A DNA stretch of 64,000 bases, taken from positions 1-64,000 of the forward strand of contig CASFID010000075.1 in assembly GCA_949294665.1 (NCBI GenBank), in the 5' to 3' direction. Shown here piece by piece: positions 31,448 to 61,028 of the stretch; within the stretch, counting starts at the first letter, position 1; every line of letters begins with the position of its first letter. The notes beneath the pieces were generated by a model that worked only from the letters and a program-made list of their open reading frames with translations, was not told the origin of the DNA and made no database searches. The stretch comes from an uncultured Eubacteriales bacterium (lineage in GTDB: Bacteria; Bacillota; Clostridia; Lachnospirales; Lachnospiraceae). The translations under genes and the position numbers were made by a program.

Positions 31448-34426
31448 ATGGTAGAAGTATGGAGATATTTTGAAGACCTGGACGAGATCATATATGTTGT
31501 TGATACGGACGACCATTCTATAGTCTATATGAATCGGTACGCCATGAAGACATTCAAGATAAAGTCGGAGGAAGAGTATAAAGGGAAAAAGTGCTACGAG
31601 CTGCTGCAGGGATTCAGGCATCAATGCCCGTTCTGTAATACAGAGGAACTGAAAGAGAAGAAATTTACAGAATGGGTATATAAAAATCCCGTGCTTCAGG
31701 AACTTTTTCTCCTCAAGGATACTCTCATCGCGATAGATGGCAAGAAATACAGGATGGAACTGGCTATCGGCATGTCGAAAACAGAAATCAAGGAGAGCAG
31801 CCGGACCATGCATTATGAGTCGCTGATCAACGACTGCCTGATCGAACAGAATGCCATCACAGACTCTGAACAGGGGATCAACGTACTGCTCAGTTCCATG
31901 GGAAATAAAATGAAGTGCAACCGTCTCGCAGTGTATGAGCAGGATGATGACGATGAGTTCGTACAATCCTATATCTGGCCCGAGCGCTACGCTGACAAGA
32001 AGAAAAAGATAGATAAAGGCGCAAGCGAATTACTTTTAGACTGGGATGAAAAGTTTAAGACAAACAAGCCGATCATCATAGGCAGGAAGAATAATATCAT
32101 ACTCATACCGTTCAGATACAGGAAAGAGCGAAGAGGAGTGTTCGTCATAGTAAATCCGATGCTTGGAAAACTGGAGGATATGGCGGAGATCGGCAGAGTA
32201 ATGTCAAACTTTATCGTCACTCTGCTGGAACGCAAGGAGTTGATCAATCATCTGGTCTATCTGAGTTATCATGATAATCTCACAGGCGCTCTGAACAGAA
32301 ACGCGATCAAAGAGCGTATGCAGACGATAGATCCGGATCAGCCGATCGGTCTCGTATTCTGCGATATCAACGGATTAAAGAAGATCAACGATATGAAAGG
32401 CCATCAGAGCGGAGATGAGATGATCATCAAGGTATATGAGACGCTGAACAGCGTGTTTTCGGAGAACAGCATATACCGAATGGGAGGGGATGAATTCCTC
32501 GTTCTGCTGGACTACAGGGAAGAAGATAAATTTACCTTACAGGTTCAGATGTTCCGCCGGATGGTAATGGAAAATAACTGTCAGGTATCCGTAGGCGTTT
32601 TATGGAAGAAACAGGCGGGGAACGATTTCAACCGTCTTCTCAAAGAAGCAGACGAGAGGATGTATGAAGAAAAGAAACAGTTTTATGCCGAGGCGCATCT
32701 GGAAAAAAGAGGAAGAAAACCGGAAGGCGACCGGATACGGCAGGAATCCGTTCATCCTTTTATCAAATTTACTCAAAACTACTATTTTGACGCAGATGTG
32801 TTTTTTAAATCTATTTCATCCCGGAGTTTTACGAACTATGTATACTGCGGGGACATGAGGAAGAATATTTATTATATATCGGACTCGATAAAAGATGATT
32901 TCAAATTCATGGACAATCTGGTCTATGATTTTATATCTCTGCTGGAGCAAAGGATCATAAAGGCGGACCGACAGTTTCATATTGATGACCGGAAGGAGAT
33001 GATAGAGAAAAAGAAGACATGGCACAGCATTTATTATCGTATTTATAACAAGGACGGCATTCCCGTAAATATTCACTGTCAGGGGATCATGAAGTGGAAC
33101 GAAGATAAATCAGAACCTCTTTTCTACTCAGGGTGCATGGAGATACTGGACAATGAACCGAATAATGACAATCTTCCCGTAAGCCAGTATTTTTCCCAGG
33201 TTATGGAAGAGTTCAGAGCGAAAGAGGATTCAGAAGATATATTACTGATCTGCGTTGTACTGAATAACTTCTCCGCCATCAACCAGCTTATGGGAAACAG
33301 AAAAGGCGATAATATTATCTGGGAGATCATGCGCAATATCAGGCTGGAACTGAATGAGAGGATCAAGCTGGTCTGGGTAACAGGGATCAGATTCATCATG
33401 ATAGCCCGGGATACCTCGAATATTGATAATATCATTAAAATAATACGCAAGGCGGTCAGACAGATATACATAGACAACCAGATATCCATTATCTACCCCT
33501 GTTCAGTAGGTATCCTGCGCAGTCCCAGAGACGGAGCAGATTCGGAGACATTGCTGGAAAATGCGGAGATCGTGATGAATGCAGCGAAGAATACACTTGA
33601 TGCGCCATATGTAGAATTTTCCAGGGATATGATGAGGCAGTACAAAGGTGAGAAAGAATTGTACATGGAATTAAACCGCTGCATCAGGAACCTTTTTGAG
33701 AATTTCCGAATTGTGATCCAGCCCCAGGTCCTGGAGGACACCGGAAAGATTTACGGAGGAGAAGTTCTGTTAAGATGGAAGTACAAAGGAGAGGATGTCC
33801 CGCCGTCAAAGTTTATCCCCATACTTGAGAAGAACGGGCTTATCATGCCGGTGGGAAAATGGATCATTACGCAGGCAGCGGAAACCCTGCAGCAAATACT
33901 GGCGATCATGCCGGACTTTAAAATGTCCATCAATATCAGTTATTACCAGATCAATGACAATACTTTCTTTCCGTTTATAAAGAATACGTTGGAGACACAT
34001 AAGATACCCGGGGAAAATATTACTCTGGAGCTTACGGAAACACATTTCAACGAGATACCGGAGGCGCTTGATATTTTTATCAGGCAGTGTCAGAAAGAAG
34101 GGATCAGTTTTGCTCTTGATGATTTCGGAAGCGCATACTCAAGTCTCCAGCTGCTGCTGGAATATCCGGCGGAGGTCGTCAAGCTGGACAGAGATATGAC
34201 TAAGAATATTACATCGTCTGCAAAAAAACTGAATTTCATCATAAGTATTATATATGCATGTCATAAGTTCGGGAAAAAGGTATGCGTTGAAGGGGTAGAA
34301 AACGAGAACGAACTCAATATCGTAAGGAAGACGGGATGCGACTTCATACAGGGGTTCTATTTTTACAGGCCCCTTGAAAAGGACAGACTTCCCGAAGTCC
34401 TGCGTGAGAACAGGAAAAAAGATTAA
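31448..34426 (+). CDS. PAS-GAF-GGDEF-(degenerate GGDEF)-EAL c-di-GMP enzyme
   Basis: A 992-residue soluble protein. Residues 1-110 are PAS-like with a CPFC pair, 130-260 GAF-like, and 275-420 a GGDEF domain with an intact GGDEF near residue 345 and no RxxD inhibition site five residues before it. Residues about 440-590 are a second sensory region, and 590-715 a GGDEF-like domain whose signature is degenerate (TGIRF). Residues 730-985 form an EAL domain with EVLLRW in place of EALLRW but with ELTE, DDFG, KLDR, EGVE and QGF motifs kept. It could make and degrade c-di-GMP. It lies 20 bp before a PilZ gene. Confidence 0.88.
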   Translation: MVEVWRYFEDLDEIIYVVDTDDHSIVYMNRYAMKTFKIKSEEEYKGKKCYELLQGFRHQCPFCNTEELKEKKFTEWVYKNPVLQELFLLKDTLIAIDGKKYRMELAIGMSKTEIKESSRTMHYESLINDCLIEQNAITDSEQGINVLLSSMGNKMKCNRLAVYEQDDDDEFVQSYIWPERYADKKKKIDKGASELLLDWDEKFKTNKPIIIGRKNNIILIPFRYRKERRGVFVIVNPMLGKLEDMAEIGRVMSNFIVTLLERKELINHLVYLSYHDNLTGALNRNAIKERMQTIDPDQPIGLVFCDINGLKKINDMKGHQSGDEMIIKVYETLNSVFSENSIYRMGGDEFLVLLDYREEDKFTLQVQMFRRMVMENNCQVSVGVLWKKQAGNDFNRLLKEADERMYEEKKQFYAEAHLEKRGRKPEGDRIRQESVHPFIKFTQNYYFDADVFFKSISSRSFTNYVYCGDMRKNIYYISDSIKDDFKFMDNLVYDFISLLEQRIIKADRQFHIDDRKEMIEKKKTWHSIYYRIYNKDGIPVNIHCQGIMKWNEDKSEPLFYSGCMEILDNEPNNDNLPVSQYFSQVMEEFRAKEDSEDILLICVVLNNFSAINQLMGNRKGDNIIWEIMRNIRLELNERIKLVWVTGIRFIMIARDTSNIDNIIKIIRKAVRQIYIDNQISIIYPCSVGILRSPRDGADSETLLENAEIVMNAAKNTLDAPYVEFSRDMMRQYKGEKELYMELNRCIRNLFENFRIVIQPQVLEDTGKIYGGEVLLRWKYKGEDVPPSKFIPILEKNGLIMPVGKWIITQAAETLQQILAIMPDFKMSINISYYQINDNTFFPFIKNTLETHKIPGENITLELTETHFNEIPEALDIFIRQCQKEGISFALDDFGSAYSSLQLLLEYPAEVVKLDRDMTKNITSSAKKLNFIISIIYACHKFGKKVCVEGVENENELNIVRKTGCDFIQGFYFYRPLEKDRLPEVLRENRKKD

Positions 34427-34446
34427 CAGGAAAAGGGGGAGGAAAA

Positions 34447-35133
34447 ATGGGTGGCGAACTCAGCGAATCAGAAGAAAAAGCCAGAAAGTATATGATGGAA
34501 AATGAGGAATTGGATATGGAAGTGTTTTCTGAAGAAAACAAATATCTGTTTTCCGGTTCCATCGGGAAAGCGTCTCCATCCGGGAAAGAAATCAAGATAG
34601 GCCTCAGAAGAGGCTACGAGATACCGGATTCCATTCAGGAGAAAGACAAGGTCAAACTTGTCACGACCAGGCAGAGAGGCAGCGATCAGCTCGCGGTCAT
34701 CATCGCAACAGTGACAGAATGTGGAAAAACATATATATACATCGCTCCGGAAGAAGTAGAAAAGTATATAGAAGGAAGAAAGCACTTTCGGATCTTTGTG
34801 AAAGAAAAGTGCACTGTCACGAGAAACAACGGGAACGACGAGAAGCGAGATACGTGCAGTACAGCGGATATCAGCCTGACAGGAATCCGCATTCTCAGCA
34901 AAGAAGAATACGAACCCGGAGAGCGGATCATGATCAGCGGTCTCCGGCTTGTGGAGAACGGAAGGATACATACATTTTCCGCCGAGATCCTGCGCAAAAA
35001 CAGTCAGAAACAGGACGGAATGAACAGTTATGGATGCTGCTTCACGGATATGACGGAAAGAAGAGAGGATATGCTGTGTCATGATATTTTCGCACTGGAA
35101 CTTTCAAGAAAAAAGGGGAACACCAAAAATTAA
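34447..35133 (+). CDS. PilZ-domain c-di-GMP receptor (YcgR/DgrA type)
   Basis: A 228-residue protein with an N-terminal YcgR-like beta domain (about 1-100) and a PilZ domain whose binding motifs are RKHFR (RxxxR, about residue 115) and DISLTG (D/NxSxxG). Such proteins bind c-di-GMP and in other bacteria brake the flagellar motor via MotA/FliG. It is 20 bp after the GGDEF/EAL gene and probably in one transcript. The terminator stem overlaps its last codons. Confidence 0.88.
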   Translation: MGGELSESEEKARKYMMENEELDMEVFSEENKYLFSGSIGKASPSGKEIKIGLRRGYEIPDSIQEKDKVKLVTTRQRGSDQLAVIIATVTECGKTYIYIAPEEVEKYIEGRKHFRIFVKEKCTVTRNNGNDEKRDTCSTADISLTGIRILSKEEYEPGERIMISGLRLVENGRIHTFSAEILRKNSQKQDGMNSYGCCFTDMTERREDMLCHDIFALELSRKKGNTKN

Positions 35134-42551: not shown

Positions 42552-44033
42552 TTAATATTTGTCGTTATTGCCCACGAAAGAACCGCTGAAAGAAGCCGGT
42601 GCAGAAGAAGTTCTGACGGATTCATGGACAGGAGCCGGATCTGACGCCGCGCCGGTCTGCGTCGGCTCACTCTTAGAGATCCCGGTATCCGCTGTGTTAT
42701 TCTGGACAGATACGGAAGAAAGTCTCTTTGCGTATGCACTTCCCATCTTTTCGCGGAGAGATGCGGCAAGCTGCGCCATCTCCTGCGTATTCCGGAACTT
42801 GAATCCGGCGACGATCTTGTGAAGAAGAACGGCCTGTGCCGACAGCTCCTGGCTGGCAGCGGCGCTCTCTTCGGCTGTGGCCGAATTTGTCTGTATAACG
42901 CTGGAAATCTGATCGATTCCGGTTGTTACCTGGGAGACCGCGTCAGCCTGAACCTTGGAAGTATCAGAGATAGAACTGATCTGATCGACCACCATCTGAG
43001 CGTTTGCCACGACTTTGTTCATGGATTCTGCCGTCTCGTCAGCGATCCGGATACCTTTGTCAACAGCGGAGATCGCATTCTGTATCATTGTAGTTGTATC
43101 TTTTGCCGCATCCTGGCTCTTCCCTGCCAGATTGCGGACTTCGTCGGCAACGACTGCGAAGCCTTTTCCTGCGGAACCTGCTCTTGCGGCCTCAACGGCG
43201 GCGTTAAGAGCCAGGATATTCGTCTGAAATGCGATATCTTCTATCGTCTTGATGATATTATGTATCTGATTGGATGTCTCCTTGATCTCAGCCATTGCAT
43301 TGGTCATCTCACTCATATGGAGGTTGCTGTCCATCATATCGTTTCCGACATTGCTGGCGAGATTGCTGGCTGTCTCCGCATTGTGAGCGGTATCTGTGAT
43401 CTGAGTGGAGATATCATTAATAGTAGCAGCCAGCTCCTGCACGGAACTTGCCTGCTCGGTAGCGCCCTGCGACAGAGCCTGCGCGCCGTCCGACACCTGT
43501 CCGCTTCCCGAGTCAACCTGAGTAGCGGCCTCGTTTACCTGCTGAAGTGTGTCGCTTAAATGGTAACAGAGAAACTGCATAGAAGTCAGCAGTGGTTCAA
43601 ATCCGTTTACATACAGTTCTCTGCACTTGGAAGAAACAGTAAAATTACCGTTCCCTATCTCTGTGAGCACATCTTTTTCATCTGCAATAATCTGATGGAG
43701 CACAGCTGTGAGCTCTTCCGTGCTTGCAACCAGCTCCCCGACCTCTCCGATCCGTTCACAATCCGGCATGGGCGAGTCCAGATCACCCTTGGCAAGCGCG
43801 TTCAGACGAGCCGCGCAATCGGTAAGAGGTGCAAACAACTGTTTCCCCGTCATAACGATCAGCATGATCAAAAATATAAGAGAGGCGATGAGAAGAAGAA
43901 TTTCGATCACAGTCAGAACAGAAGAGTTCCCTATTGAAGCGATGATTCCTGCCGCCGCTGCGATCCATGCTGTCAGCGCAAGAAGAAAACAGACAATATG
44001 AGTTTTCAGTTTTAAAGTTGTTTTTTGATCCAT
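42552..44033 (-). CDS. Methyl-accepting chemotaxis protein without extracellular sensor
   Basis: A 493-residue chemoreceptor. Two membrane helices (about residues 10-32 and 38-60) are separated by only a few residues, so there is no periplasmic ligand domain. HAMP-like segments follow, then the signalling hairpin tip ([20 protein letters not shown] and [16 protein letters not shown]) and a flexible tail rich in Ser/Ala. I start at ATG 44033 behind GGAAGGAG. It likely senses membrane state, cytosolic cues, or a partner. The gene is leftward and divergent from the flagellar operon. Confidence 0.9.
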
Positions 44034-44179
44034 GTTATCTACTCCTTCCATACTGTGACTTTCGACACAATCTGTAAAAAAATAAGTAGTTAAGAGCGTA
44101 ATTCAGTAAAATTTTTGTTATGATCTTGTTAAAAAATGTCCAAATGATGGATTTTCTTACGGTTTTGTGCAATAAAGTG

Positions 44180-44208
44180 TTGACAATCCCATAGGGGGGG
44201 GGTAAAAT
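44180..44208 (+). promoter_or_regulatory. Flagellar operon promoter with G9 tract in spacer
   Basis: TTGACA at 44180-44185 and TAAAAT at 44203-44208 with a 17-nt spacer (ATCCCATA then nine G at 44194-44202). This SigA-type promoter lies about 165 bp upstream of flgB. The G9 homopolymer makes the spacer length prone to slippage, and 17 nt is the optimal length, so the sequenced state is predicted ON. Confidence 0.8.
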
Positions 44209-44211
44209 CTT

Positions 44212-44238
44212 TAAAATGAAAGGGAATTATGTCGAAAA
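44212..44238 (+). promoter_or_regulatory. Candidate SigD/FliA-type promoter
   Basis: TAAA (44212-44215), 15 nt, then GTCGAAAA (44231-44238), matching the SigD consensus TAAA-N15-GCCGATAA at 4 of 4 and 6 of 8 positions. B. subtilis also has tandem SigA and SigD promoters before flgB. The match is imperfect, so it is only a candidate. Confidence 0.35.
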
Positions 44239-44384
44239 CAGTCGGGAAAGAGGATGAGGAAAGTTCCAGAGATAAGAGTTATATGTACAGTCCGAACAGC
44301 CCGGCTTACATTTTGAAAAAAAGTATTTGCTCTATGATGCAAAACATATTAAATAAGGAAAGGATGTGTCTTATATGGCGATAA
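44229..44384 (+). CDS. Possible 51-codon leader ORF before flgB
   Basis: ATG 44229 has AAAGGG 4 nt upstream; the frame encodes a basic 51-residue peptide (MSKTVGKEDEESSRDKSYMY…) and stops at TAA 44382-44384, ten bases inside flgB in another frame. If translated, it would couple to flgB initiation. No family is recognised, and it may be chance. Confidence 0.3.
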   Translation: MSKTVGKEDEESSRDKSYMYSPNSPAYILKKSICSMMQNILNKERMCLIWR

Positions 44385-44761
44385 ACGGGATTTATGGAAA
44401 TACGATCAGCATGGCGTCGAAAGCCCTTGACTTTCTCTGGGCAAAAGAATCCGTAATATCTGATAATCTTGCGAATGTAGAAACGCCCGGATATAAGTCA
44501 AAGTATGTTACCTTTGAAGAGGAGTTCCAGAGAAGGCTCAAGGCGGCGGACCATGACGCGCAGAGCGTGGCCGGGGCGATAAACGCAAGCAGATATCAGG
44601 TACATACATCGGAAGAGGAGTCTTCCAGAGTCGACGGCAACAATGTCAATGCGGATGTGGAGATCATGGAACTGACGCGAACGTCTCTCCAGTATCAGTA
44701 TCTTCTCAGGAGCGTGAGCAGCGATATCAGCCGTCTGAATACGGTGATCACAGGACAGTGA
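44375..44761 (+). CDS. flgB: Flagellar basal-body rod protein FlgB
   Basis: A 128-residue proximal rod protein exported by the flagellar type III system. The rod signature AKESVISDNLANVETPGYKSK lies near residues 20-40, and the C terminus has the conserved ELTRTSLQYQYLLRSVSSDI helix. I prefer ATG 44375 (spacing 10 from AAAGGA); a GTG at 44366 is the alternative. It is the first gene of the operon. Unusually, flgC does not follow. Confidence 0.94.
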   Translation: MAINGIYGNTISMASKALDFLWAKESVISDNLANVETPGYKSKYVTFEEEFQRRLKAADHDAQSVAGAINASRYQVHTSEEESSRVDGNNVNADVEIMELTRTSLQYQYLLRSVSSDISRLNTVITGQ

Positions 44762-44820
44762 GCCTGAGCCGGCAGGAGTAAGGGAAACATCGGATTATAC
44801 TTTCTAAGGAGATAATGATT

Positions 44821-45126
44821 ATGGAGACGAATTTTATCACACCGATTCAGCTTTGGGGATCGATCGAGGGAATAGACGCCGCTCCGGTATCGACAGCGGC
44901 TCCGGACGGGATGTTCCGCAGTATATTCCAGAATGCGGTTCAGGACGTAAGAGACACGGAGGCGAACCTCCAGACACAGCAGTACCTTCTGGCGACAGGA
45001 CAGATTGACGATCCTCATTCTGTTCAGATCGCTGCCTCGGAAGCCCAGCTTTCTACGAGTATGCTCGTTCAGCTCAGGAACAAGGCGTTGGATTCATACA
45101 ATGAGTTGATGAGAATCAGTCTGTAA
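44821..45126 (+). CDS. fliE: Flagellar hook-basal body protein FliE
   Basis: A 101-residue protein that joins the MS ring to the rod. The family core is seen in FRSIFQNAVQDVRDTEANLQ and the C-terminal QLSTSMLVQLRNKALDSYNELMRI. ATG 44821 is chosen over ATG 44815 by spacing to AAGGAG. It is 59 bp after flgB, where flgC is usually found. Confidence 0.93.
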   Translation: METNFITPIQLWGSIEGIDAAPVSTAAPDGMFRSIFQNAVQDVRDTEANLQTQQYLLATGQIDDPHSVQIAASEAQLSTSMLVQLRNKALDSYNELMRISL

Positions 45127-45150
45127 ACGTGGCGGAGAGGGAAGCGTACG

Positions 45151-46767
45151 ATGAAGCTTGATATAAAGAAAAAATTGAATGAAATAAAAGAATTTGTAGG
45201 GCGGCTCGACAAACGTGTAAAGATCATCAGTGTAATCATTGCAGTTCTTATCATTGTGGGAGCTGTGGTGACGGCGTTGGTGCTCAATCACACGAATTAT
45301 GTGCCGCTTTTTTCTGAGCTCTCGCAGGACGAGGCGACGGAGATCGTTGCAAAGCTGCAGGACGACGGAACAGACTACCGTTATAACGGCGACGGAACGA
45401 TCATGGTCGATGAAAAAGACGCAGACAGTATCCGCGCGCAGCTGGTATACGAAGGATATCCGAGCAGCGGTTTTACCTACGATATCTTCACTGAGAATGC
45501 CGGAGGCATGGCGACAGACTCCGAGCAGCAGACCTATAAGCTCTACGAGTTGCAGAACAGGATCGGGGCTACGATAGGTCTTTTTGATGGAGTTCAGGAC
45601 GCCCGGGTAACGATCGCTCTCGGCGAGGAGCAGAGATATGTGCTCGAAGATACGGATGAGAACGGAACAGGAGCCGCCAGCGCGTCTGTCGTTGTTACGA
45701 TGCAGAGCGGCGCAGAGCTGAGCGCTCGTCAGGCGGAGGCGATCCAGCGTCTGGTGGCGCGCAGTGTCCCCAATATGTCTATGGAGAATGTATCCGTGTT
45801 CGATCAGAACGGGATCGAACTGTCAGAGAATACGGATCAAGAAGCGGCTGCAGGCACAACAGAGGCAGAACTCTCCCGGATCGTAGAGCAGAAGATCGAA
45901 CAGAAGATCATCAATCTCCTCGTCCCGTTCTATGGAGAGGGAAATGTTCGCGTTGCTGCAAACGGAAGCATCAACATGGACCGGATCATCCGTGAGACGA
46001 CGACGTATACAACGCCGGATAAGATCGACCAGAACGACAAGACGGGAATCGTCTCCCATGAGGAGGGATCTACGGACGAAGGAACCGGGACCGACACCGC
46101 AGCCGGAGTGGCGGGGACAGAAGAAAACGCTGATATCGCGGAATACAATCAGCAGGACGGGACCAACCAGAATACATATAACAGCGAGACTTACAGCAGA
46201 GATTACCTGGTCAATCAGGTGAAGGAACAGACAGAGATCGATCCCGGCGTTATGGATGATCTGACAGTGTCTGTCTCGGTAAACGGAACAGATTTCGGAA
46301 ACCTTCAGTACGATGATGTGAGAAATCTCGTCGCAAACGCGGCAGGGATCCCGCTGGATCAGATCGATCAGAAGATCACTGCAGTGGCCGCTCCGTTCTA
46401 TACAGAGACGCCGGCGCAGGATACTGAGACGGCGGCGCAGAGCATCATACAGACCTACGGATGGATCCTGGCAATAGTCGGCGGAGCGCTGCTCCTCCTG
46501 CTGCTGATCGTGTTCCTGATCATCCGGAGGATCAGAAAGCGCAGAGCACAGAGAGAGCAGATGCTTGCAGATACAGGTGAGATGGAGATCATTCCTGAAA
46601 CGCAAGACAGCGGAAAGGATCTTGATATTCTGAGTATGCAGAATGAGAGAAGCCGGGAACTCAGAGAGAATATCAGAGATTTCGCGGAGGATAATCCGGA
46701 GATTTCCGCTCAGATGCTGAGATCATGGCTGAATGGAGGCGAAGAAGATGCCGCAAACACAAACTAA
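45151..46767 (+). CDS. fliF: Flagellar MS-ring protein FliF
   Basis: A 538-residue membrane ring protein. Membrane helix 1 lies at about residues 27-50, a YscJ-type ring-building motif follows (PLFSELSQDEATEIVAKLQ), a long Asp/Thr-rich insertion (about 300-350) occupies the periplasmic part, membrane helix 2 is near residues 440-465, and the C-terminal FliG-binding helix is ISAQMLRSWL. Overlaps fliG by 20 bp. Confidence 0.95.
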   Translation: MKLDIKKKLNEIKEFVGRLDKRVKIISVIIAVLIIVGAVVTALVLNHTNYVPLFSELSQDEATEIVAKLQDDGTDYRYNGDGTIMVDEKDADSIRAQLVYEGYPSSGFTYDIFTENAGGMATDSEQQTYKLYELQNRIGATIGLFDGVQDARVTIALGEEQRYVLEDTDENGTGAASASVVVTMQSGAELSARQAEAIQRLVARSVPNMSMENVSVFDQNGIELSENTDQEAAAGTTEAELSRIVEQKIEQKIINLLVPFYGEGNVRVAANGSINMDRIIRETTTYTTPDKIDQNDKTGIVSHEEGSTDEGTGTDTAAGVAGTEENADIAEYNQQDGTNQNTYNSETYSRDYLVNQVKEQTEIDPGVMDDLTVSVSVNGTDFGNLQYDDVRNLVANAAGIPLDQIDQKITAVAAPFYTETPAQDTETAAQSIIQTYGWILAIVGGALLLLLLIVFLIIRRIRKRRAQREQMLADTGEMEIIPETQDSGKDLDILSMQNERSRELRENIRDFAEDNPEISAQMLRSWLNGGEEDAANTN

Positions 46768-47770
46768 TCCCAATGCGTTGACGCCCGAACAGAAAGCGGC
46801 TACCGTAGTCGTAGCTCTCGGAGCGGACAAAGCGTCCAGGATATATAAATATCTGACCTCCGACGAGGTGGAGAAGCTGACGCTGGAGGTAGCAAAGCTG
46901 GGCCATGTCGAGGCGGGAAGGACGGAAGAAGTCCTGGATGAATTTTATAAGACCTGTCTGACGCGAAAGGTCGTCACAGACGGAGGCATGGAGTACGCCA
47001 GGACAGTCCTGGAAAAAGCGTACGGGGAATCTACGGCGCGCGAGCTGCTCCAGAAAGTAGCCAAATATCTTAAGAACAGATCCTTTGAATTTCTGCAGAA
47101 GATGGACAGCAAGAACCTGTTCGCAGTGCTCCAGTATGAAAGACCGCAGACGATCGCCATGGTCCTGTCCTATTCAGACGCTCAGCAGGCGGCCGAGGTC
47201 ATCACGGAGCTGCCCGATGAGAAGCGGATCAAGGTGGTCGAGGCGATCGCCAGGATGGAGAGCGCTTCTCCCGAGGCGATCAAGATCGTGGAAAAGCAGC
47301 TTCGGAACAAGTTCAACAGCATTCTTACGACAGACTTTACTACGATCGGCGGAGTCGATTATATCGCGGACGTCATGAACAATATGGACCGCTCGAACGA
47401 GAAGTACATATTCGACGAGATGAGCAAGACCGAGCCGGAACTGGCGGATACGATCCGCAAGAAGATGTTCGTATTCGAGGATATCGCTACGATGGACAAC
47501 CGCTCGATCCAGAGGTTCATAAGAGAATGCGATATGAAGGATATCGTCTACGCACTCAAGGGTGCAGACGAGTCGATCGCATCTCTGTTCTACGCAAATA
47601 TGTCTACCCGTATGGCCGATACGATACGGTCAGACCTTGAGATCACTGTTAACGTCCGCTTAAGGGATGTAGAAGAAGCACAGCAGCGTATTGTCAATCT
47701 GATCCGCCGTCTCGATGAAGAAGGCGAACTTGTGATCAGTAAAGGCGGAAAGGATGAGATCATTGTCTAG
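46748..47770 (+). CDS. fliG: Flagellar motor switch protein FliG
   Basis: A 340-residue rotor protein that meets MotA. N-terminal FliF-binding domain (LTPEQKAATVVVALGADKAS), middle domain with the EHPQ-like region replaced by YERPQTIAMVLS, and the C-terminal torque helix with charged residues (RSDLEITVNVRLRDVEEAQQ). ATG 46748 lies 8 nt after GGAGG, inside the end of fliF. Confidence 0.95.
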   Translation: MPQTQTNPNALTPEQKAATVVVALGADKASRIYKYLTSDEVEKLTLEVAKLGHVEAGRTEEVLDEFYKTCLTRKVVTDGGMEYARTVLEKAYGESTARELLQKVAKYLKNRSFEFLQKMDSKNLFAVLQYERPQTIAMVLSYSDAQQAAEVITELPDEKRIKVVEAIARMESASPEAIKIVEKQLRNKFNSILTTDFTTIGGVDYIADVMNNMDRSNEKYIFDEMSKTEPELADTIRKKMFVFEDIATMDNRSIQRFIRECDMKDIVYALKGADESIASLFYANMSTRMADTIRSDLEITVNVRLRDVEEAQQRIVNLIRRLDEEGELVISKGGKDEIIV

Positions 47771-48509
47771 GATCGTACACGGCCGTGAAGAGAGTTCATG
47801 GCAGGAAGCTCCATATCCTGATCTGGCTCCGGAAAAAAAGGAGACAATCCCGGTCAGGATAAAGACACAGGAGGAGCGGAACAGAGAGAAAAGCGAGAAG
47901 CTCTTACACGAGAATGTGGAGAAGGCGAAAGCGCTCCTGAACCTGGCCCGCGTAGAGGCTCTCAAGATCAAGAAAGCCGCCTACGAAGAAGGATTTGAAG
48001 AAGGCAGGGAAGCCGGCTACGAAGACGGCAGGAAGAAAGCGTACGAGGAACACAAGGAAGAGCTCAAAGAAGAGTGCCTGAAACTCCAGCAGAAGATAGA
48101 AAAGTATGTGACCGATATGGAACATGCGAAAGAGAGGGTGACGGAGGAATATCTTGACGATCTGAAAAACATCTCCCTCGCCATCGGGGAGAAGATCGTA
48201 CAGACAAGCCTGAAGTCCAGCGGGGACGTGGTCAGGAATATGATCCTCGCGGCGACGGACAAGCTGAAAAAGACAGCATGGGCCAAGATCTATATCTCCG
48301 ACAACCCGGAAGAAAAAGCCGGAGATATCCGGGGGGATGCAGATCTTCTCCGGGAACTGTCCAGGATCTCGGACAACGTAAAGATCATCGTAATGGAAGA
48401 CGCGGCGCCGGGCACATGTATCGTTGAACTTCCGCAGGAAGTGATGGATATCAGCGTCAGCACCCAGATGGAGAACATCAAGGAGATTCTGAACAATGCG
48501 AGAGTGTAG
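47754..48509 (+). CDS. fliH: Flagellar export regulator FliH
   Basis: A 251-residue partner and inhibitor of the FliI ATPase. A long coiled coil (about residues 40-125) contains repeated glycines on one face (YEEGFEEGREAGYEDGRKKAYEE), the family's GxxxG hallmark, followed by the vacuolar-ATPase-E-like C-terminal domain. The start is ATG 47754, overlapping fliG by 17 bp; TTG 47763 is an alternative. Confidence 0.9.
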   Translation: MRSLSRIVHGREESSWQEAPYPDLAPEKKETIPVRIKTQEERNREKSEKLLHENVEKAKALLNLARVEALKIKKAAYEEGFEEGREAGYEDGRKKAYEEHKEELKEECLKLQQKIEKYVTDMEHAKERVTEEYLDDLKNISLAIGEKIVQTSLKSSGDVVRNMILAATDKLKKTAWAKIYISDNPEEKAGDIRGDADLLRELSRISDNVKIIVMEDAAPGTCIVELPQEVMDISVSTQMENIKEILNNARV

Positions 48510-48528
48510 CTGTTAAGGAGGGATGGAC

Positions 48529-49830
48529 ATGTTCAGCGAAATACCGAAACTGATCCTTCAGTCTGAGACGATCAACCATATCGGACGGATCGAGAATATC
48601 ACGGGAATGTCCATGGAAGCCTCCGGCGGCGGAGCCAATATCGGCGACATCGTGATGATATACGATGAAGAACAGCACAGGCAGATCCAGGCAGAAGTGG
48701 TAGGCTTCCGCGAGGACAGAGTCCAGCTCATGGCCTACGAGAGCATGAGCGGGATCGGCACCAACAGCTTTGTCAGAAATACAAAAAAAAGACTCAAGAT
48801 CCCGGTAGGTGAATTCTTAAGAGGGCGTATCATAGACGCTCTCGGACGGCCTCTCGATGACAAGGGGGGCTTCACCACCTCCCGGTATTATTATGTGGAG
48901 AACCCGAAGATCAATCCACTGAAACGTCCCAGGATCTCAGAGCCGCTCGGCTTCGGGATCAAGGCGATCGACGGACTGAACACGATCGGCAAGGGACAGC
49001 GTATCGGGATCTTCGCCGGCAGCGGCGTCGGCAAGAGTACCCTCATGGGTATGATCGCCAGGAACGTCCGCACAGACATCAACGTCATCGCTCTCGTCGG
49101 AGAGCGTGGACGAGAAGTTCTGGAGTTCGTCGAGAAGGATCTGGGACCTGAGGGGATGGCCCGTTCCATTCTCGTTGTGGCTACATCCGATCAGCCGGCG
49201 ATGCTCCGCATGAAATGTCCGCTTGTGGCGACCACCATTGCAGAGTACTTCAAGGACAGGGGGAAAGACGTACTCCTGATGATGGACTCTCTGACCAGAT
49301 TCGCCATGGCGCAAAGAGAGATCGGGCTTGCCACAGGAGAGCCGCCTGTGGCAAGAGGATATACCCCCTCGATCTACGCCGAATTCCCCAAGCTGCTGGA
49401 GAGGAGCGGGAATTTTGAGAAAGGTTCCATCACAGGCGTGTATACCGTCCTCGTGGAAGGAGACGACACAAACGAGCCTGTGGCCGACACAGTCAGAGGT
49501 ATTCTGGACGGACATATCGTCCTTACCAGGAAGCTGGCGAACTCGAACCATTTCCCGGCCATAGACATCAACGCCAGCATATCGAGACTTATGACAGAGA
49601 TCGTGGGAGATGAACACAAGGCGCTCGCGTCAGAGATGAGAGATATCCTGAGTCTTTACGCTCAGAACGAAGACCTGATCTCCATCGGAGCATACAAAGC
49701 GGGTACCAATCCCCGTTTGGATCATGCGATCTCGCGCATACAGAAGATCAATGATTTCCTGATGCAGAAGACGGGTGAGTCGTTCACCATGGAGCAGACA
49801 GTACAGATGATGAAAGAAATACTCAAATGA
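48529..49830 (+). CDS. fliI: Flagellum-specific ATPase FliI
   Basis: A 433-residue F1-like export ATPase. Walker A GSGVGKSTL lies near residue 165, and the ATPase family signature PSIYAEFPKLLERSG and the Walker B strand VLLMMDSLTRFA are seen. It energises and orders export of rod, hook and filament subunits. ATG 48529 is preferred over 48523 by spacing to AAGGAGG. Confidence 0.95.
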   Translation: MFSEIPKLILQSETINHIGRIENITGMSMEASGGGANIGDIVMIYDEEQHRQIQAEVVGFREDRVQLMAYESMSGIGTNSFVRNTKKRLKIPVGEFLRGRIIDALGRPLDDKGGFTTSRYYYVENPKINPLKRPRISEPLGFGIKAIDGLNTIGKGQRIGIFAGSGVGKSTLMGMIARNVRTDINVIALVGERGREVLEFVEKDLGPEGMARSILVVATSDQPAMLRMKCPLVATTIAEYFKDRGKDVLLMMDSLTRFAMAQREIGLATGEPPVARGYTPSIYAEFPKLLERSGNFEKGSITGVYTVLVEGDDTNEPVADTVRGILDGHIVLTRKLANSNHFPAIDINASISRLMTEIVGDEHKALASEMRDILSLYAQNEDLISIGAYKAGTNPRLDHAISRIQKINDFLMQKTGESFTMEQTVQMMKEILK

Positions 49831-49860
49831 CGGGAACATCATGACAGGGAGGGATAACCC

Positions 49861-50322
49861 GTGAAGAAATTTGCCTTTACACTGGAACGTGTGCTCGACT
49901 ACAAAGAGCAGGTGGAGCAGAGTTTAAGGAACGAGCATGGGCAGGCTGTCAGAAAAGTAAAAGAACAGGAGCAGAAGATCGATGATCTGGAAGTCGGATA
50001 CCGGTCTTTCCGGGACAGAGTAGAGGAAGCCAAAAAGTCGGAGATGTCTTCTGCAAGACTCCTCGGATATTCCGCCTATCTCAGCACGATGATCGGGAGG
50101 ATCTCAGCGGAGAAAGATGAGCTCGCAAGACGGCAGAAAGAAGAAGAGCGCAGGCGCGAGCTTGTGATCGAGGCGAAGAAGGAGACCTCGTCCATCCAGA
50201 TGCTCAAGGACAAAAAGAGAAAAGAGTACGACGCCCTCGTGGCAAAAGAGCAGGAGAGAGAGATCGAGGAGTTCGTATCCAACCGTTCGATATCGGACAA
50301 AAACGAACATAAGAACGGGTAG
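49861..50322 (+). CDS. fliJ: Flagellar export chaperone FliJ
   Basis: A 153-residue, almost wholly coiled-coil protein rich in Lys, Glu and Arg (FTLERVLDYKEQVEQSLRNE at the start). FliJ is the central stalk of the FliH-FliI complex and recycles chaperones. The start is GTG 49861 after GGGAGGG. Position between fliI and fliK supports the call. Confidence 0.88.
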   Translation: MKKFAFTLERVLDYKEQVEQSLRNEHGQAVRKVKEQEQKIDDLEVGYRSFRDRVEEAKKSEMSSARLLGYSAYLSTMIGRISAEKDELARRQKEEERRRELVIEAKKETSSIQMLKDKKRKEYDALVAKEQEREIEEFVSNRSISDKNEHKNG

Positions 50323-50385
50323 TCCTGTTTTCCACGGAAAGCAGATTACCATAGATATCTTTCAGGAAAAGGAGGTGAATGGAAA

Positions 50386-51537
50386 ATGGAGATGATCATG
50401 CAGAACATGATGATGCAGCAGCCGTCAGCCCCTTCGACGGGAAAGGACCTGATGTCCGGTCTCAAGGATCAGACGCAGGAGAGCGGCTCTGATATGTTCG
50501 CACAGATGATGGAAGCAGCCGGAGAGAAAACTGCGGGCCAGACCGGAGAGACGGGAAAGGACGACGCTCTGATCCAGAGCCTGGCGGGCCAGTTCATGCA
50601 GAACATGGCGATGAATCCGCTTATGAACATGGTGTCCGTTGACACAGCAGTACAGACAGGTATACCGGCGGAGATGCAGGTAACGCTTCCTGTTGTGAAC
50701 GCAGAGAATGTCACAGCGCCGGGGAACACTTCACTGGCGGGAGAGCAGATATCCGCAGGGAATATGACGCCCGCAACGGATACAGGCGCGGTCCCGACAG
50801 AGATTGCAGCGGCAGCAGACCGGACCGTTGTCACAGAGAACAGAGCAGAACCGGTGCAGAACACTGTACAGCCTGTAACAGATACGGGGACGGAGCAGAC
50901 GGCATCGATCCCGCAGGAAGCATCAAAGACACAGTCTGAGACGCCGCAGCAGGATCAGACATACGCGGGCATGACCGCTGCAGCGGACGGGAAGACGAAG
51001 ACAGAAAACGACGCGAAGACTTCCGCAGAACCGGAGACAATGCAGTTCCAGACAGCAGCCGGATCTACGGCGGCCAGGGTGGAAACACCGGTACAGCAGA
51101 ACACAGCGGCGTCGGAGACACTGCAGTTCCATACGACGGATCAGGCGGAGAACATACAGAAGCTGACCGAGCTGATCAAAAATGCGGTAGACTCTCAGGT
51201 CAGAGAAGTAGAGATCCAGCTTGAGCCTGCGAATCTGGGTAAGATCACCCTGAAAGCAGTCTATGAAGGCGGCAAGGCGGCAGTTGTGATAAGCTGCACG
51301 AACCAGGCGGCTCTCGAGGCCCTCTCGGGGAAAGCGGCAGAGCTTGGAGGACTTCTGCAGGAGCGCATGGGCGGCCAGACGGAGATCATAGTCGAACAGC
51401 CGCAGCAGCAGTACCTGAACCAGGACGGCCGCAGCGGAAATCAGGAAGCCCGTGAAGAACAGCGCCAGCAGAAAAAACAGAACAGCCGTCCGCAGACAGG
51501 AGATTTCCTGGAGCAGCTTCGGCTTGGATTAATCTAA
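50386..51537 (+). CDS. fliK: Flagellar hook-length control protein FliK
   Basis: A 383-residue secreted ruler. The N-terminal two thirds are low-complexity, rich in Thr, Ala and Gln. The C-terminal Flg_hook domain (about residues 250-350) has the family pattern VEIQLEPANLGKITLKAVYE and ends in a Gln-rich tail. It halts hook growth by acting on FlhB. RBS AAAGGAGG. Confidence 0.9.
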   Translation: MEMIMQNMMMQQPSAPSTGKDLMSGLKDQTQESGSDMFAQMMEAAGEKTAGQTGETGKDDALIQSLAGQFMQNMAMNPLMNMVSVDTAVQTGIPAEMQVTLPVVNAENVTAPGNTSLAGEQISAGNMTPATDTGAVPTEIAAAADRTVVTENRAEPVQNTVQPVTDTGTEQTASIPQEASKTQSETPQQDQTYAGMTAAADGKTKTENDAKTSAEPETMQFQTAAGSTAARVETPVQQNTAASETLQFHTTDQAENIQKLTELIKNAVDSQVREVEIQLEPANLGKITLKAVYEGGKAAVVISCTNQAALEALSGKAAELGGLLQERMGGQTEIIVEQPQQQYLNQDGRSGNQEAREEQRQQKKQNSRPQTGDFLEQLRLGLI

Positions 51538-51561
51538 CAGACAGAGCAGGAGGGAGAAAAA

Positions 51562-52152
51562 ATGCCAGATATATCTGCACTGAGCACAGTCAGTACACTG
51601 AATACGGCTGTTGCCCAGAGAACCTCGACGAACACATCATCAACACAGAACACTGATTCCGTGCGGGACACTGCGACGGTAGCGAATACGGAGAATGTGA
51701 CGAACAAGAGCGCATATGAAATCTCCATGTCGGACTTCTACACGCTCCTTGCCACGCAGATCCAGTATCAGGATGCAGACAATCCGATGGATACGTCAGA
51801 GATGATGAGCCAGCTCGTACAGAACCAGATGTCGGAGGCGATCACACAGATGTCAACGGCAGTCTCGGACCTTACGACAGTGAATCTTCTGAATTATTCC
51901 ACATCCATGATGGGCAAAGAAGTCACACTGGCGGAAGTCGACGACAGAGGAAACTACACAGGAGAAGAGACAAAGGGCGTAGTCACAGGCGTGACGCTTG
52001 GCTCGACGCCGACAGTAGTCGTAAACGGGAAAGAATACAGCATCGTCCAGATCATGGGCGTAGGTGATGTTCCGGAGAAGGAAGATTCCGAGAAGCCGGG
52101 AGAAGGCGGCGCACAGGGTTCTGAGGGAACCGGGGGAACACAGTCTGTATAG
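51562..52152 (+). CDS. flgD: Flagellar hook capping protein FlgD
   Basis: A 196-residue hook cap. The conserved capping motif DFYTLLATQIQYQDADNPMD lies near residue 57, and NQMSEAITQMS follows. The N terminus is Thr/Asn-rich, and the C terminus ends in a Gly/Glu-rich tail of 25 residues. It is between fliK and the TIGR02530-type gene. Confidence 0.92.
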   Translation: MPDISALSTVSTLNTAVAQRTSTNTSSTQNTDSVRDTATVANTENVTNKSAYEISMSDFYTLLATQIQYQDADNPMDTSEMMSQLVQNQMSEAITQMSTAVSDLTTVNLLNYSTSMMGKEVTLAEVDDRGNYTGEETKGVVTGVTLGSTPTVVVNGKEYSIVQIMGVGDVPEKEDSEKPGEGGAQGSEGTGGTQSV

Positions 52153-52178
52153 AAGAGAAAGGATGTGTTGAACAACAG

Positions 52179-52556
52179 ATGTACCAGACAGGGAAAGTTA
52201 CAAGCTCTCAGTCACTGATGGTACAGCATGAGCTCGGATACAGCGGAAAATCCACCGGTACAGAGTTTGCAGAACGTCTGAAGGAAGCCGCGGCGCAGAA
52301 GGAGACAGTCCAGTTCTCACGCCATGCCTCCCAGCGTATGGAACAGCGGGGGATCAAACTCACAGGGGAGAATCTGCAGGAACTTTCGCAGGCGGTCGAG
52401 AGGGCTCGCCAGAAAGGCTCAAAAGAGACCGTAGTGATCGGAAGTCACGGCGCGTTCATCGTCAATGTGGCGAACAACGTAGTAGTGACGTCCATTACAG
52501 AGCAGGAAATGAAAAACAACATATTTACAAATATCGACAGCGCTGTCTTTATGTAG
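52179..52556 (+). CDS. TIGR02530-type flagellar operon protein
   Basis: A 125-residue protein of the family found between flgD and flgE in Firmicutes. The diagnostic core is FSRHASQRMEQRGIKLTGEN and then FIVNVANNVVVTSITEQEM, ending FTNIDSAVFM. Its exact role is unknown, but its position suggests a function in hook assembly. Confidence 0.85.
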   Translation: MYQTGKVTSSQSLMVQHELGYSGKSTGTEFAERLKEAAAQKETVQFSRHASQRMEQRGIKLTGENLQELSQAVERARQKGSKETVVIGSHGAFIVNVANNVVVTSITEQEMKNNIFTNIDSAVFM

Positions 52557-52643
52557 GCCGGACCTCTTTGAGGAGGCCGGGCCCGGATGTGCGACTGACA
52601 GCCGGGCGGGAAAGCGCTTCGTAAAAGAAAAGGAGAAGAAGCA

Positions 52644-53570
52644 ATGATAAGATCAATGCAGTCGGCAATTGCCGGATTGAAATCACACCAGACGAAGATG
52701 GATGTTATCGGTAACAATATCGCGAACGTCAATACATGGGGATACAAGTCAAAGAGCGCCAACTTCGCGGACGCCATGTACCAGAACTACATCACCGGAG
52801 CGGCCGGAAACGCTACAGCCGGAAACCTCGGAGGCATCAACGCTTCCCAGATCGGGTACGGGGCGAACGTAAGCTCCATCACTTCAAACTCGGAGACAGG
52901 CACACAGTCCTACACCGGAAGGGCGTTTGACTGTATGATCGACGGACCGGCTTACTTCATCGTAGGGCCGATGGGCGCCGGCGCGGTGGATCCGGACGAC
53001 CTTGCAGGGAGCGGACTGAGCCTTTCCCGTGTGGGGATCTTCAACATGGACAGCAACGGCTATCTTGTGGACGATCAGGGAAATTATGTATACGGTTATA
53101 CGACCGGAACTGGTGACGGAAACGGAAATATCACCGTGAACACAGGGACAGACCTGCAGCCCATCCGCCTGAATATCGGAATCGCCGATGATGGGGCGGG
53201 TACCCCGACACCCATAACATACTCTTCCGTGAAGATCGGAACGGACGGCATCATCACCGTTGTCGACAAGGATTCCAACCAGGCATACGTCGTCGGACAG
53301 ATCGCGCTTGCAACAGTGGAGAACGTCAACGGTCTTGAGCAGGACAGTGGATTCCTCTATGAGATCGGAGACAATGCCGGAAACGTGGACGTCGGCGTCC
53401 AGACAGCAGCCACGGGACGCGTGCTCAGCGGCTACCTGGAGATGTCCAACGTGGACCTCGCCACAGAGATGTCCTACATGATCACAACACAGAGAGGATA
53501 TCAGGCGAATACGAGAATGATCACAGTATCGGACCAGATGCTCGAAGAGCTCGTAAATATGAAGCGCTGA
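52644..53570 (+). CDS. flgE: Flagellar hook protein FlgE (short form)
   Basis: A 308-residue hook protein with the N-terminal rod/hook signature (MIRSMQSAIAGLKSHQTKMD, GNNIANVNTWGYKSK) and C-terminal EMSYMITTQRGYQANTRMI helix. It is short for FlgE, lacking the large D2 insertion of longer hooks. FlgG-type rod protein is an alternative, but the gene's place after flgD and before flbD favours FlgE. Confidence 0.88.
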   Translation: MIRSMQSAIAGLKSHQTKMDVIGNNIANVNTWGYKSKSANFADAMYQNYITGAAGNATAGNLGGINASQIGYGANVSSITSNSETGTQSYTGRAFDCMIDGPAYFIVGPMGAGAVDPDDLAGSGLSLSRVGIFNMDSNGYLVDDQGNYVYGYTTGTGDGNGNITVNTGTDLQPIRLNIGIADDGAGTPTPITYSSVKIGTDGIITVVDKDSNQAYVVGQIALATVENVNGLEQDSGFLYEIGDNAGNVDVGVQTAATGRVLSGYLEMSNVDLATEMSYMITTQRGYQANTRMITVSDQMLEELVNMKR

Positions 53571-53622
53571 TCGCGCGCCGCATGATCCGTGAGATCATAC
53601 ACAGTCTGTTACATTGGATGTA

Positions 53623-53649
53623 TCTGCGGGGCTATTCCGGCCCCGCAGA
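53623..53649 (+). other. GC-rich hairpin between flgE and flbD
   Basis: TCTGCGGGG (53623-53631), 9-nt loop, CCCCGCAGA (53641-53649). There is no T run, so it is more likely an RNA-stabilising or processing element than a terminator. It lies about 20 bp before flbD. Confidence 0.55.
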
Positions 53650-53670
53650 CAGGAAAGAGGAGAGCTGCAT

Positions 53671-53871
53671 ATGGTAGAGTTTACAAAACTGAATGGAGAT
53701 ATGATCCTGATCAATCCTTTTCAGATCGAGTATGTGGAACTGATCCCTGAGTCAAAGGTCATCATGATGAACGGACATTTTCATATCGTGAAAGAAAATG
53801 AAGATGAGATCATAAGGAAAATTACTCAGTACAGAACGGAAATCTGTCGCAAGGCTGATTCGGAGGTATAG
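53671..53871 (+). CDS. flbD: FlbD/SwrD-type flagellar protein
   Basis: A 66-residue protein (MVEFTKLNGDMILINPFQIEY) of the family that in B. subtilis (SwrD) raises motor power. It is 2 bp before motA. ATG 53671 follows GAGGAG; the longer upstream frame crosses the hairpin and is not family-like. Confidence 0.88.
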   Translation: MVEFTKLNGDMILINPFQIEYVELIPESKVIMMNGHFHIVKENEDEIIRKITQYRTEICRKADSEV

Positions 53872-53873
53872 CT

Positions 53874-54713
53874 ATGGACATTACAAGTATTATTGGCATT
53901 ATAGCTGGATTCGCTTTCACTATTTATGGAATCCTCGGAAGCGGAAGCATCTGGAATTTCTATGATGTGCCCAGTATACTGATCGTGTTAGGGGGAACGA
54001 TCAGTGCGATCGTAGCCAGCTTCCCTCTCAGTATTTTGAAAAATGTAGGCAAGCATATGGTGATCATATGCAGCTCAAAAAAGTTTCAGCCGGAACCGGT
54101 GATCGAGACGCTGGCGGAATTTGCTCAGGTAGCCAGAAAGGACGGACTCCTTGCACTTGAGGGAAGAGTGGCGGAGCTGGACGATCCGTTTCTGAAAAAA
54201 AGCGTAATGTATGTGGTAGATGCAATGGATCCCGAGAAGATCCGCAGCACTCTGGAACAGGACATTGAGAACACGTCTCAGCGCCATTCGGAGCAGACGG
54301 ACATGTACATCAGAGGTTCCGCATATGCGCCGGCGTTCGGTATGATCGGTACCCTGATCGGTCTGATCAACATGCTTAAGGATATGGACCTTTCTTCAGG
54401 AGCGTCAGAAAGTCTTGGCGCCAATATGTCAGTTGCACTTGTAACAACATTCTACGGATGTGTGCTTGCCAATCTTGTATTTCATCCGATCTCTTCTAAG
54501 CTGAACTTAAGAGACGACGAGGAGAGACTTTACAAGGAGATCATTGTAGAGGGTGTTCTCGCGATCCAGGAGGGAGACAACCCGAAGGTTCTCAGAGAAA
54601 GACTTGCTTCTACGCTCGCCCAGAAGCGCCAGCTCATGATCACAGAGGGCGAAGGCGGAGAAGGCGGCTCCGGCGGAAAGAAGAGAGCAAAGAGAGGCAG
54701 AAAGAAAAAATAA
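53874..54713 (+). CDS. motA: Flagellar stator protein MotA
   Basis: A 279-residue stator subunit with four membrane helices (near residues 3-23, 32-52, 150-172, 182-204). The loop after helix 2 holds the charged FliG-contacting region. The conserved GMIGTLIGLINML segment is in helix 3. The C terminus ends in a strongly basic KRAKRGRKKK tail. It pairs with motB, 12 bp downstream. Confidence 0.94.
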   Translation: MDITSIIGIIAGFAFTIYGILGSGSIWNFYDVPSILIVLGGTISAIVASFPLSILKNVGKHMVIICSSKKFQPEPVIETLAEFAQVARKDGLLALEGRVAELDDPFLKKSVMYVVDAMDPEKIRSTLEQDIENTSQRHSEQTDMYIRGSAYAPAFGMIGTLIGLINMLKDMDLSSGASESLGANMSVALVTTFYGCVLANLVFHPISSKLNLRDDEERLYKEIIVEGVLAIQEGDNPKVLRERLASTLAQKRQLMITEGEGGEGGSGGKKRAKRGRKKK

Positions 54714-54725
54714 GGGAGGAAGAAT

Positions 54726-55517
54726 ATGAAAAAACCGAAAAGCAGTGCTTCGGGTGGTTCATGGATGGACACATACGGAGATATGGTCACACTTCTTCTC
54801 TGTTTCTTCGTACTTCTCTATGCGATCTCATCTGTGGACCAGTCCAAATGGCAGAACTTTGTAGCCAGTGTGAATCCTGAGGCAGCAGAGGAACTGCAGC
54901 AGATGCGGAGCGAAGAAGCGGCCGAAGCAGAGGCGGAGAACGCCGCGATCCAGCAGATGTATGAGAGCCTTACCGCGGAATTTCAATCTATGGGCCTGGA
55001 CGCCAATGTTAGCGTAGTCAGAGGCGACGGATACGATTTCATTTCTTTCAGTGATGAGATCTTCTTTCAAGGAGACAGCTATAATGTTACATCGAACGGG
55101 CGTCTTGTACTGGACGGGTTCCTGAGAGCGATAACTCCTTCTGCAGGTCAGATCCATGAGATCCAGGTACTGGGACACACGACAGAGATCCCGGGCCGGT
55201 ACAACACAGTGGAAGACCGGATGCTTTCTGCAGAACGTGCCGCACAGGTCACAGCTTATATCCAGTCGGCAGATATCATCGATCCGGCGAGAATGCTGAG
55301 TATCGGATACGGACAGTTCCGCCCGATCGCAGACATCAACACCGAGGAGGGGCGGAGCAAAAACCGCAGGGTAGAGATCCTCATTACAAACGATGAAGCT
55401 GTGCTGAAGAGCCTGACAGAATACTATGCGGAGGTATATGGAGAAGATGTGGCAGCGATGCAGCCGGACGCAGAGACTCCGAACAATACCTCGGCCGCCC
55501 CGGCAGAAGGAGAATGA
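54726..55517 (+). CDS. motB: Flagellar stator protein MotB
   Basis: A 263-residue stator anchor. A single membrane helix (about residues 20-40) begins with the ion-binding Asp in MDTYGDMVTLLLCFFVLLYA, then the plug/linker and an OmpA-like peptidoglycan-binding domain (LGHTTEIPGRYNTVEDRMLS, SKNRRVEILI). The next gene is fliM; the usual fliL is not present. Confidence 0.94.
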   Translation: MKKPKSSASGGSWMDTYGDMVTLLLCFFVLLYAISSVDQSKWQNFVASVNPEAAEELQQMRSEEAAEAEAENAAIQQMYESLTAEFQSMGLDANVSVVRGDGYDFISFSDEIFFQGDSYNVTSNGRLVLDGFLRAITPSAGQIHEIQVLGHTTEIPGRYNTVEDRMLSAERAAQVTAYIQSADIIDPARMLSIGYGQFRPIADINTEEGRSKNRRVEILITNDEAVLKSLTEYYAEVYGEDVAAMQPDAETPNNTSAAPAEGE

Positions 55518-55599
55518 TAATGTCCGGGATGGCAGAAGCACAGTCCTGTACATGGAAAAAGGAATACGGCGCAGCAGCCCGTAGGTTAGGAGGAAAGAC

Positions 55600-56703: not shown

Positions 56704-56748
56704 TTCTGCTGTGACTATAAAAAAACAAGAAAGTGAGAGGAACAAAAA

Positions 56749-57108: not shown

Positions 57109-57122
57109 AGGAGGAGAGTTCC

Positions 57123-57569: not shown

Positions 57570-57592
57570 CAACCAGGTAGGGAGAGATAGTG

Positions 57593-58864: not shown

Positions 58865-58870
58865 TGTCAG

Positions 58871-59870: not shown

Positions 59871-59899
59871 CAGACGCGCAGAGAAAGGAGGATGCTGTT

Positions 59900-60163: not shown

Positions 60164-60173
60164 GAGGCGGAGA

Positions 60174-60956: not shown

Positions 60957-61028
60957 AGGGAATTCAGGACGGGAGACAGAGCGCGGAAGGACGGCGCGGT
61001 ACACGCAGATAAAGGAGTGTGATGGACA

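Follow-up and report, generated by a model that had tools for sequence, protein, structure and literature searches.

Can a run of nine guanines inside the promoter of a flagellar operon act as a switch for motility? The question is raised by a 64,000-nt stretch of DNA (the window) from an uncultured member of the Lachnospiraceae (own genome: 3.59 Mb in 75 contigs, estimated contamination of 5%), in which a TTGACA and a TAAAAT hexamer enclose a G9 tract 166 nt upstream of flgB. Both hexamers, the 17-nt spacing and the location of the tract given in a preliminary description of this DNA were exact upon re-reading (Table 1). The tract lies entirely inside the −35/−10 interval, and at its deposited length it gives a spacing of 17 nt. 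In both respects the site resembles porA of Neisseria meningitidis, where a poly-G tract is located between −35 and −10 and the optimum spacing is 17 (PMC7864442).

Table 1. Features of the intergenic region upstream of flgB and of the adjoining genes (window coordinates).
Feature	Position	Strand	Basis or remark
Methyl-accepting chemotaxis protein (MCP) gene, divergent	42552..44051	-	Pfam; heads the minus-strand chemotaxis cluster
Imperfect inverted repeat around the promoter	44060..44237	.	Arms 44060-44071 and 44226-44237, 12 nt, 92% complementary
TGTCGAA (TTCGACA on the plus strand), 0A-box-like, divergent intergenic region	44061..44067	-	Identical 7-mer, orientation kept, in 8/9 genomes including own
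−35 hexamer TTGACA, flgB operon promoter	44180..44185	+	Direct reading and sigma-70-like scan; conserved in relatives
Spacer, 17 nt	44186..44202	+	Same length in 9/9 genomes, own included
G9 homopolymer, touches the −10 box	44194..44202	+	Candidate slippage tract; G9 also in G043
−10 hexamer TAAAAT	44203..44208	+	Direct reading and sigma-70-like scan
Putative 5′ leader, ~160 nt	44215..44374	+	Predicted from the −10 position
TGTCGAA, 0A-box-like	44230..44236	+	21 nt after the −10 box
flgB, first gene of the operon	44375..44761	+	Pfam Flg_bb_rod; alternative GTG start at 44366
fliE fliF fliG fliH fliI fliJ fliK flgD flagellar_put flgE/F/G-like flbD motA motB	from 44815	+	Pfam; fliH by position
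fliM cheY flgC-like fliY-like fliO fliP fliQ fliR flhB	after motB, to 62090	+	Pfam

Scanning positions 43900–44500 for sigma-70-like sites returned two of them (mean of 1.9 in shuffled sequence). The flgB promoter matches 11 of the 12 consensus bases; the second site (9/12) is located within flgB, which leaves the flgB promoter as the sole sigma-70-like site in the region separating flgB from the divergent MCP gene. From a genus set of 58 genomes, comprising relatives with names such as Mediterraneibacter, nine (own included) matched the region by DNA. Since the contig of one of these (G034) begins within the operon, the promoter was compared in the remaining eight and in G408 (Candidatus Dorea gallistercoris). 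The pattern TTGAC[AC]-N17-TANA[AC]T was present upstream of flgB in all nine readable genomes, own included, with TTGACA as the −35 hexamer in eight and TTGACC in one. Because this arrangement is kept throughout, the flgB promoter looks real.

The preliminary description had placed the promoter in front of a 24-gene flagellar operon. The downstream flagellar cluster was confirmed, although the count is 23 genes, all pointing in one direction and starting with flgB and ending with flhB (44375–62090), as assigned by Pfam and position; fliH, which has no Pfam match, was placed by position alone. We infer that these 23 genes form a single transcript. On the other side, cheA, cheW, cheR and cheB lie beyond the divergent MCP gene (Pfam). 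Past this chemotaxis cluster, genes for a GGDEF/EAL and a PilZ protein (31448–35133) place parts of c-di-GMP signaling near the flagellar genes.

By itself, a run of at least eight G within 64 kb is not rare: shuffling the window gave an expectation of 0.6 G8 matches, and the two observed were reached by 17 of 100 shuffles. It is the position of the G9 run, not its presence, that is unusual. Genome-wide, a spacer with at least seven consecutive G was found in just one of 62 TTGACA-N16-18-TANAAT sites, namely the flgB promoter. The own genome contains nine distinct runs of at least G8, four of which are at least G9 (three of these four on the contig of the window), so that ∼3 × 10−4 coincidences of a run of at least G9 with one of the 62 sites would be expected, a calculation made post hoc with the site already seen.

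Among the nine genomes compared, a G9 spacer was found only in the own genome and in the sister species G043. In G046, the spacer contains a G7 tract displaced towards the −35 box. Interrupted G-rich spacers are present in G027 (GGGGAGGGGG, that is G4AG5) and G408 (GGAGGGGG), G020 has GGACGGG, and the spacers of G031, G023 and G038 contain no G tract; a run of at least eight G is absent from seven of the nine. The 29-nt promoter cores of the own genome and G043 are identical at 28 of 29 positions, with G9 kept, and the flanks are 52–64% conserved (49 of 76 aligned columns upstream, plus 24 gap columns; 54 of 103 downstream, plus 35 gap columns). In a FlgB-FliE-FliF tree, the two G9 species group together (100/98) and adjoin G031 and G020, and G027 and G408 are placed elsewhere (91/94). 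Taken together, the tree and the survey of spacers indicate that a G-rich spacer recurs and that the long pure tract is confined to one lineage; within this sample, the G9 tract is lineage-specific. Counting tract lengths in related genomes, a check suggested at the outset, thus found tracts to compare in two species, both with G9 and no difference in length, the other seven of the nine genomes having an absent, short or broken tract.

At the level of the family, 213 of 397 genomes, own included, had a match to a FlgB profile, and the regions upstream of flgB were read in 40 of them, in a first batch of 30 distinct genomes (own, G408 at two loci, and 28 others) and a second of 10; one of these regions (L067) is only 258 nt long. 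The arrangement TTGAC..G7+..TANAAT before flgB was seen in the own genome only, and besides G408, 38 further family genomes had no such spacer. Two other Lachnospiraceae genera carry independent G runs upstream of flgB: G070 (L049) has G10 flush with a TAAAAT ∼228 nt before the gene and no convincing −35 box, and G176 (L167) has G13 ∼170 nt before the gene and no fitting hexamers.

Judged by motif counts, poly-G spacers as such are enriched across the family. A search for TTGACN..G7+..TANAAT returned 17 rows from 11 of 58 genomes in the genus set, 84 rows from 58 of 397 in the family set and 48 rows from 25 of 391 in the class set (five of the 48 coming from family genomes that are also in the family search), with 1, 1 and 0 rows, respectively, for the pattern read backward. 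Swapping C7 for G7 in the genus set gave two places in one of the 58 genomes, and three for the corresponding backward control. The 101 genus and family rows (17 + 84, one shared and a few overlapping) were reduced to 94 distinct promoters that were read, with at least two rows (G185:C81 and G269:C31) left out. The tract touches the −10 box in 64 of these 94, and tract lengths range from G7 to G11 among the poly-G promoters, with longer ones in G573.

These tracts often precede genes for predicted secreted proteins. The first downstream ORF was signal-peptide-like for 55 of 90 poly-G promoters versus 2 of 16 ordinary promoters of the own genome (Fisher p = 3 × 10−4), where the choice of ORF was blind to signal peptides, scoring followed a simple hydrophobicity rule, the control comes from one genome and some of the poly-G promoters are paralogous. 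Pfam was run on 53 of the 61 ORFs downstream of flush tracts (omitting two FlgB, five short ORFs of 60–110 aa and L145) and identified BspA-type leucine-rich repeats in three, ABC transporters in three and GGDEF domains in two, as well as single matches to Big_3, AIDA, CAP and choline-binding families; no Pfam family was common to more than three of the 53. Outside the Lachnospiraceae, the Clostridia G573, G681 and G799 had seven, five and nine rows of poly-G spacer promoters, and 12 of the 13 downstream frames read in these three genomes have a lipobox-like start.

The length of the tract also differs between some homologous promoters at such other loci. G008 and G015 have TTGACAAAAATATTCC in common, followed by G9 in the former and G11 in the latter; overall identity is 78%, and the tract is the sole gap in the alignment from before the −35 box to past the start codon. 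Two copies in G573 that are 95% identical carry G11 and G12, with gaps in two nearby A/T stretches as well, and two copies in G135 carry G9TG and G7. No length difference was present between the two copies in G020 (both G11) or among four G799 paralogues (all G9). When the 94 promoters were compared for similarity, values under ∼0.75 were largely noise.

The spacers of flush-tract promoters are dispersed in length. Spacers of 16–18 nt make up 29 of 64 flush-tract promoters versus 29 of 45 ordinary promoters of the own genome (N12-24), a difference in dispersion that was also evaluated within 14–21 nt (Fisher p = 0.002). The ordinary promoters center on 17 nt (22/45, N12-24), and the mode of the flush-tract spacers is 19 nt, not 17, so that, with an optimum at 17 nt, weak or inactive promoters would be expected for many of the deposited copies. 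We read the dispersed flush-tract spacers as on and off states that may have been caught in a snapshot, although a different optimum for G-rich spacers would also fit.

We consider it likely that the early flagellar operon is subject to slipped-strand phase variation of its promoter spacing, as at porA. The flgB operon promoter would be of the sigma-A type with a slippage-prone G9 tract in its spacer, and each G gained or lost would shift the −35/−10 distance by one. With G9 (17 nt), the promoter would be at or near its best, with G8 or G10 it would be weaker, and with G7 or G11 it would be nearly off. Slipped-strand mispairing in replication would then generate a mixture of motile and non-motile cells, comparable to porA and tp0126. 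For the G9 tract, we infer that its length mutates at an elevated rate, that this affects transcription and that switching is under selection. The phase-variable switch that was originally proposed is partly supported. It is favored by the identity of the promoter, the position of the tract, the wider pattern of poly-G spacers, often before secreted-protein genes, and the differing lengths of some homologues; at the flagellar promoter itself no length variation was seen, the tract being G9 in both species having it and absent, short or broken in seven of nine genomes.

A real promoter whose spacer acquired a G run by chance, with any slippage being unselected and of little effect, is an unlikely alternative: such neutrality would agree with a spacer that in most relatives is unconstrained in sequence yet keeps its length of 17, and with the expected frequency of G8 runs (0.6 matches per 64 kb), but not with spacer G runs outnumbering backward-read controls by 17:1 in the genus and 84:1 in the family, with their frequent position before secreted-protein genes, or with a promoter core that is kept in G043, G9 included, despite a diverged background.

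The range of tract lengths from G7 to G11, and beyond in G573, argues against a fixed G-rich cis-element, be it a repressor site (for example of the CsoR/RcnR/FrmR type) or a DNA-shape element, in which length variation would be incidental. An element of this kind, which we regard as quite improbable, could account for the interrupted G-rich spacers that persist in G027, G408 and G020 and for the CC that stands in front of the tract in 13 of the 64 promoters with a flush tract; however, TACC before and TA after the tract occur together in just 5 of the 64, and no Pfam family recurs in more than three of the 53 downstream proteins. In CsoR/RcnR/FrmR-type operators, the G tract lies within a conserved dyad. 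A CsoR-like operator was rejected as a candidate, the TACC..TA dyad found in those 5 of 64 promoters being absent from the flgB promoter.

The promoter is also flanked by two TGTCGAA motifs in inverted orientation, which we take to resemble the Spo0A box. GTCGA is found 9–22 nt after the −10 box in eight of nine genomes; over the full window, the TGTCGAA 7-mer shows no enrichment. The pair suggests that the flagellar and divergent chemotaxis genes may be under Spo0A-type control. Both motifs are contained in the imperfect inverted repeat of Table 1 (154 nt between the arms), the arms of which we have taken for putative regulator boxes because the perfect core is 8 bp, the arms are not equally far apart in all relatives and flgB is the gene faced by the promoter in nine of nine genomes. 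The switch would then gate a regulated promoter rather than substitute for its control. DNA inversion as in the flagellar switch of Clostridioides difficile, which could turn the promoter, lying between short inverted repeats, to face the chemotaxis receptor gene, is disfavored and highly improbable: the operon is the same as in C. difficile, the repeat does enclose the promoter, and TCGAC before and GTCGA after it recur in eight of nine genomes, but exact arms of at least 10 nt are absent (versus 21 bp in C. difficile), no reversed copy was found among the nine genomes, arm-to-arm distances vary as those of regulator boxes do, and no recombinase was found among 10 further window ORFs scanned.

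Several described systems come closest to the flgB promoter, with differences from each. In contrast to porA, a single outer-membrane porin gene in a Gram-negative species, the tract precedes 23 clustered flagellar genes in a member of the Lachnospiraceae from the gut, and the effect of its length is presumed. The OmpW homologue tp0126 of Treponema pallidum likewise has poly-G between −35 and −10 and is transcribed best at a distance of 17 (PMC7864442); this is one spirochaete outer-membrane protein with experimental support, whereas the flgB case is predicted from sequence. The T-tract of Helicobacter pylori sabA is a promoter homopolymer that tunes RNA polymerase binding, and of 25 loci counted in the same work, nine carry a tract of T or A in the −35/−10 interval (PMC4081817); the sabA tract is located beside the −35 box and acts through UP-like elements, and the flgB G9 tract lies within the spacer. 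In C. difficile, the flgB operon has a sigma-A promoter and is preceded by the phase-variable switch. This switch is an invertible element of 154 bp, located in the leader and bounded by 21-bp repeats, which acts after initiation; a c-di-GMP riboswitch is present in addition (PMC5386303, PMC7446863). The candidate switch described here would have the same placement ahead of the flgB operon; unlike in C. difficile, the repeat tract is inside the promoter itself, and the inverted repeat around it is imperfect, with short arms. The putative leader (44215–44374) matched no Rfam family at gathering thresholds, including the c-di-GMP riboswitch, and a tRNA was the only Rfam match in the window at these thresholds.

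Further candidate slippage loci were observed in the own genome. On the minus strand, TTGACG-N16-TATTAT with G8 in its spacer precedes a LytR-CpsA-Psr gene (G000:C3:57057; L029:3058–3065), and the G034 orthologue has no G run. A GGDEF/PAS/EAL gene carries G10 shortly after its ATG (L030:3502–3546; G000:C58:40536); since this ATG opens a frame that stops immediately in the own assembly, the c-di-GMP enzyme looks translationally off. On the contig of the window, three ORFs at G000:C75:100970, 112714 and 119829 (L026, L027 and L028) contain G8–G9 runs and encode an ADH/ATP-grasp protein, a citrate-lyase-ligase-like protein and a polysaccharide deacetylase next to an Epimerase_2 gene; these are candidates for frameshift phase variation. 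Finally, a helix-turn-helix/Uma2 gene has G8 immediately 5′ of its ATG (L031:4042–4049; G000:C35), with a C8 run beginning 85 nt upstream.

To our knowledge, the phase variation described in this dominant group of gut bacteria is mostly DNA inversion. The preliminary statement that no clostridial flagellar system of the present kind has been described agrees with a search of the open-access literature, which is not proof of absence: neither homopolymer phase variation in Lachnospiraceae nor a flagellar operon promoter with a homopolymer in its spacer turned up in this literature, outside which most subscription journals fall.

On balance, and with the sequence patterns described here as the basis, we lean towards the view that Lachnospiraceae and some other Clostridia possess an unrecognized phasome of many sigma-A promoters with slippage-prone poly-G spacers, through which surface proteins and lipoproteins would be switched at random, and that in two Mediterraneibacter species it may also include the early flagellar operon, giving recombinase-free stochastic motility and flagellin display. 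Flagellin is a main route for host sensing of gut Lachnospiraceae; motility influences access to mucus. If the reading is true, single strains would behave as mixed populations through a repeat-based flagellar switch, which could be read straight from existing sequencing reads, and the family-wide pattern would yield a list of surface genes that are candidates for phase variation in a dominant group of gut bacteria.
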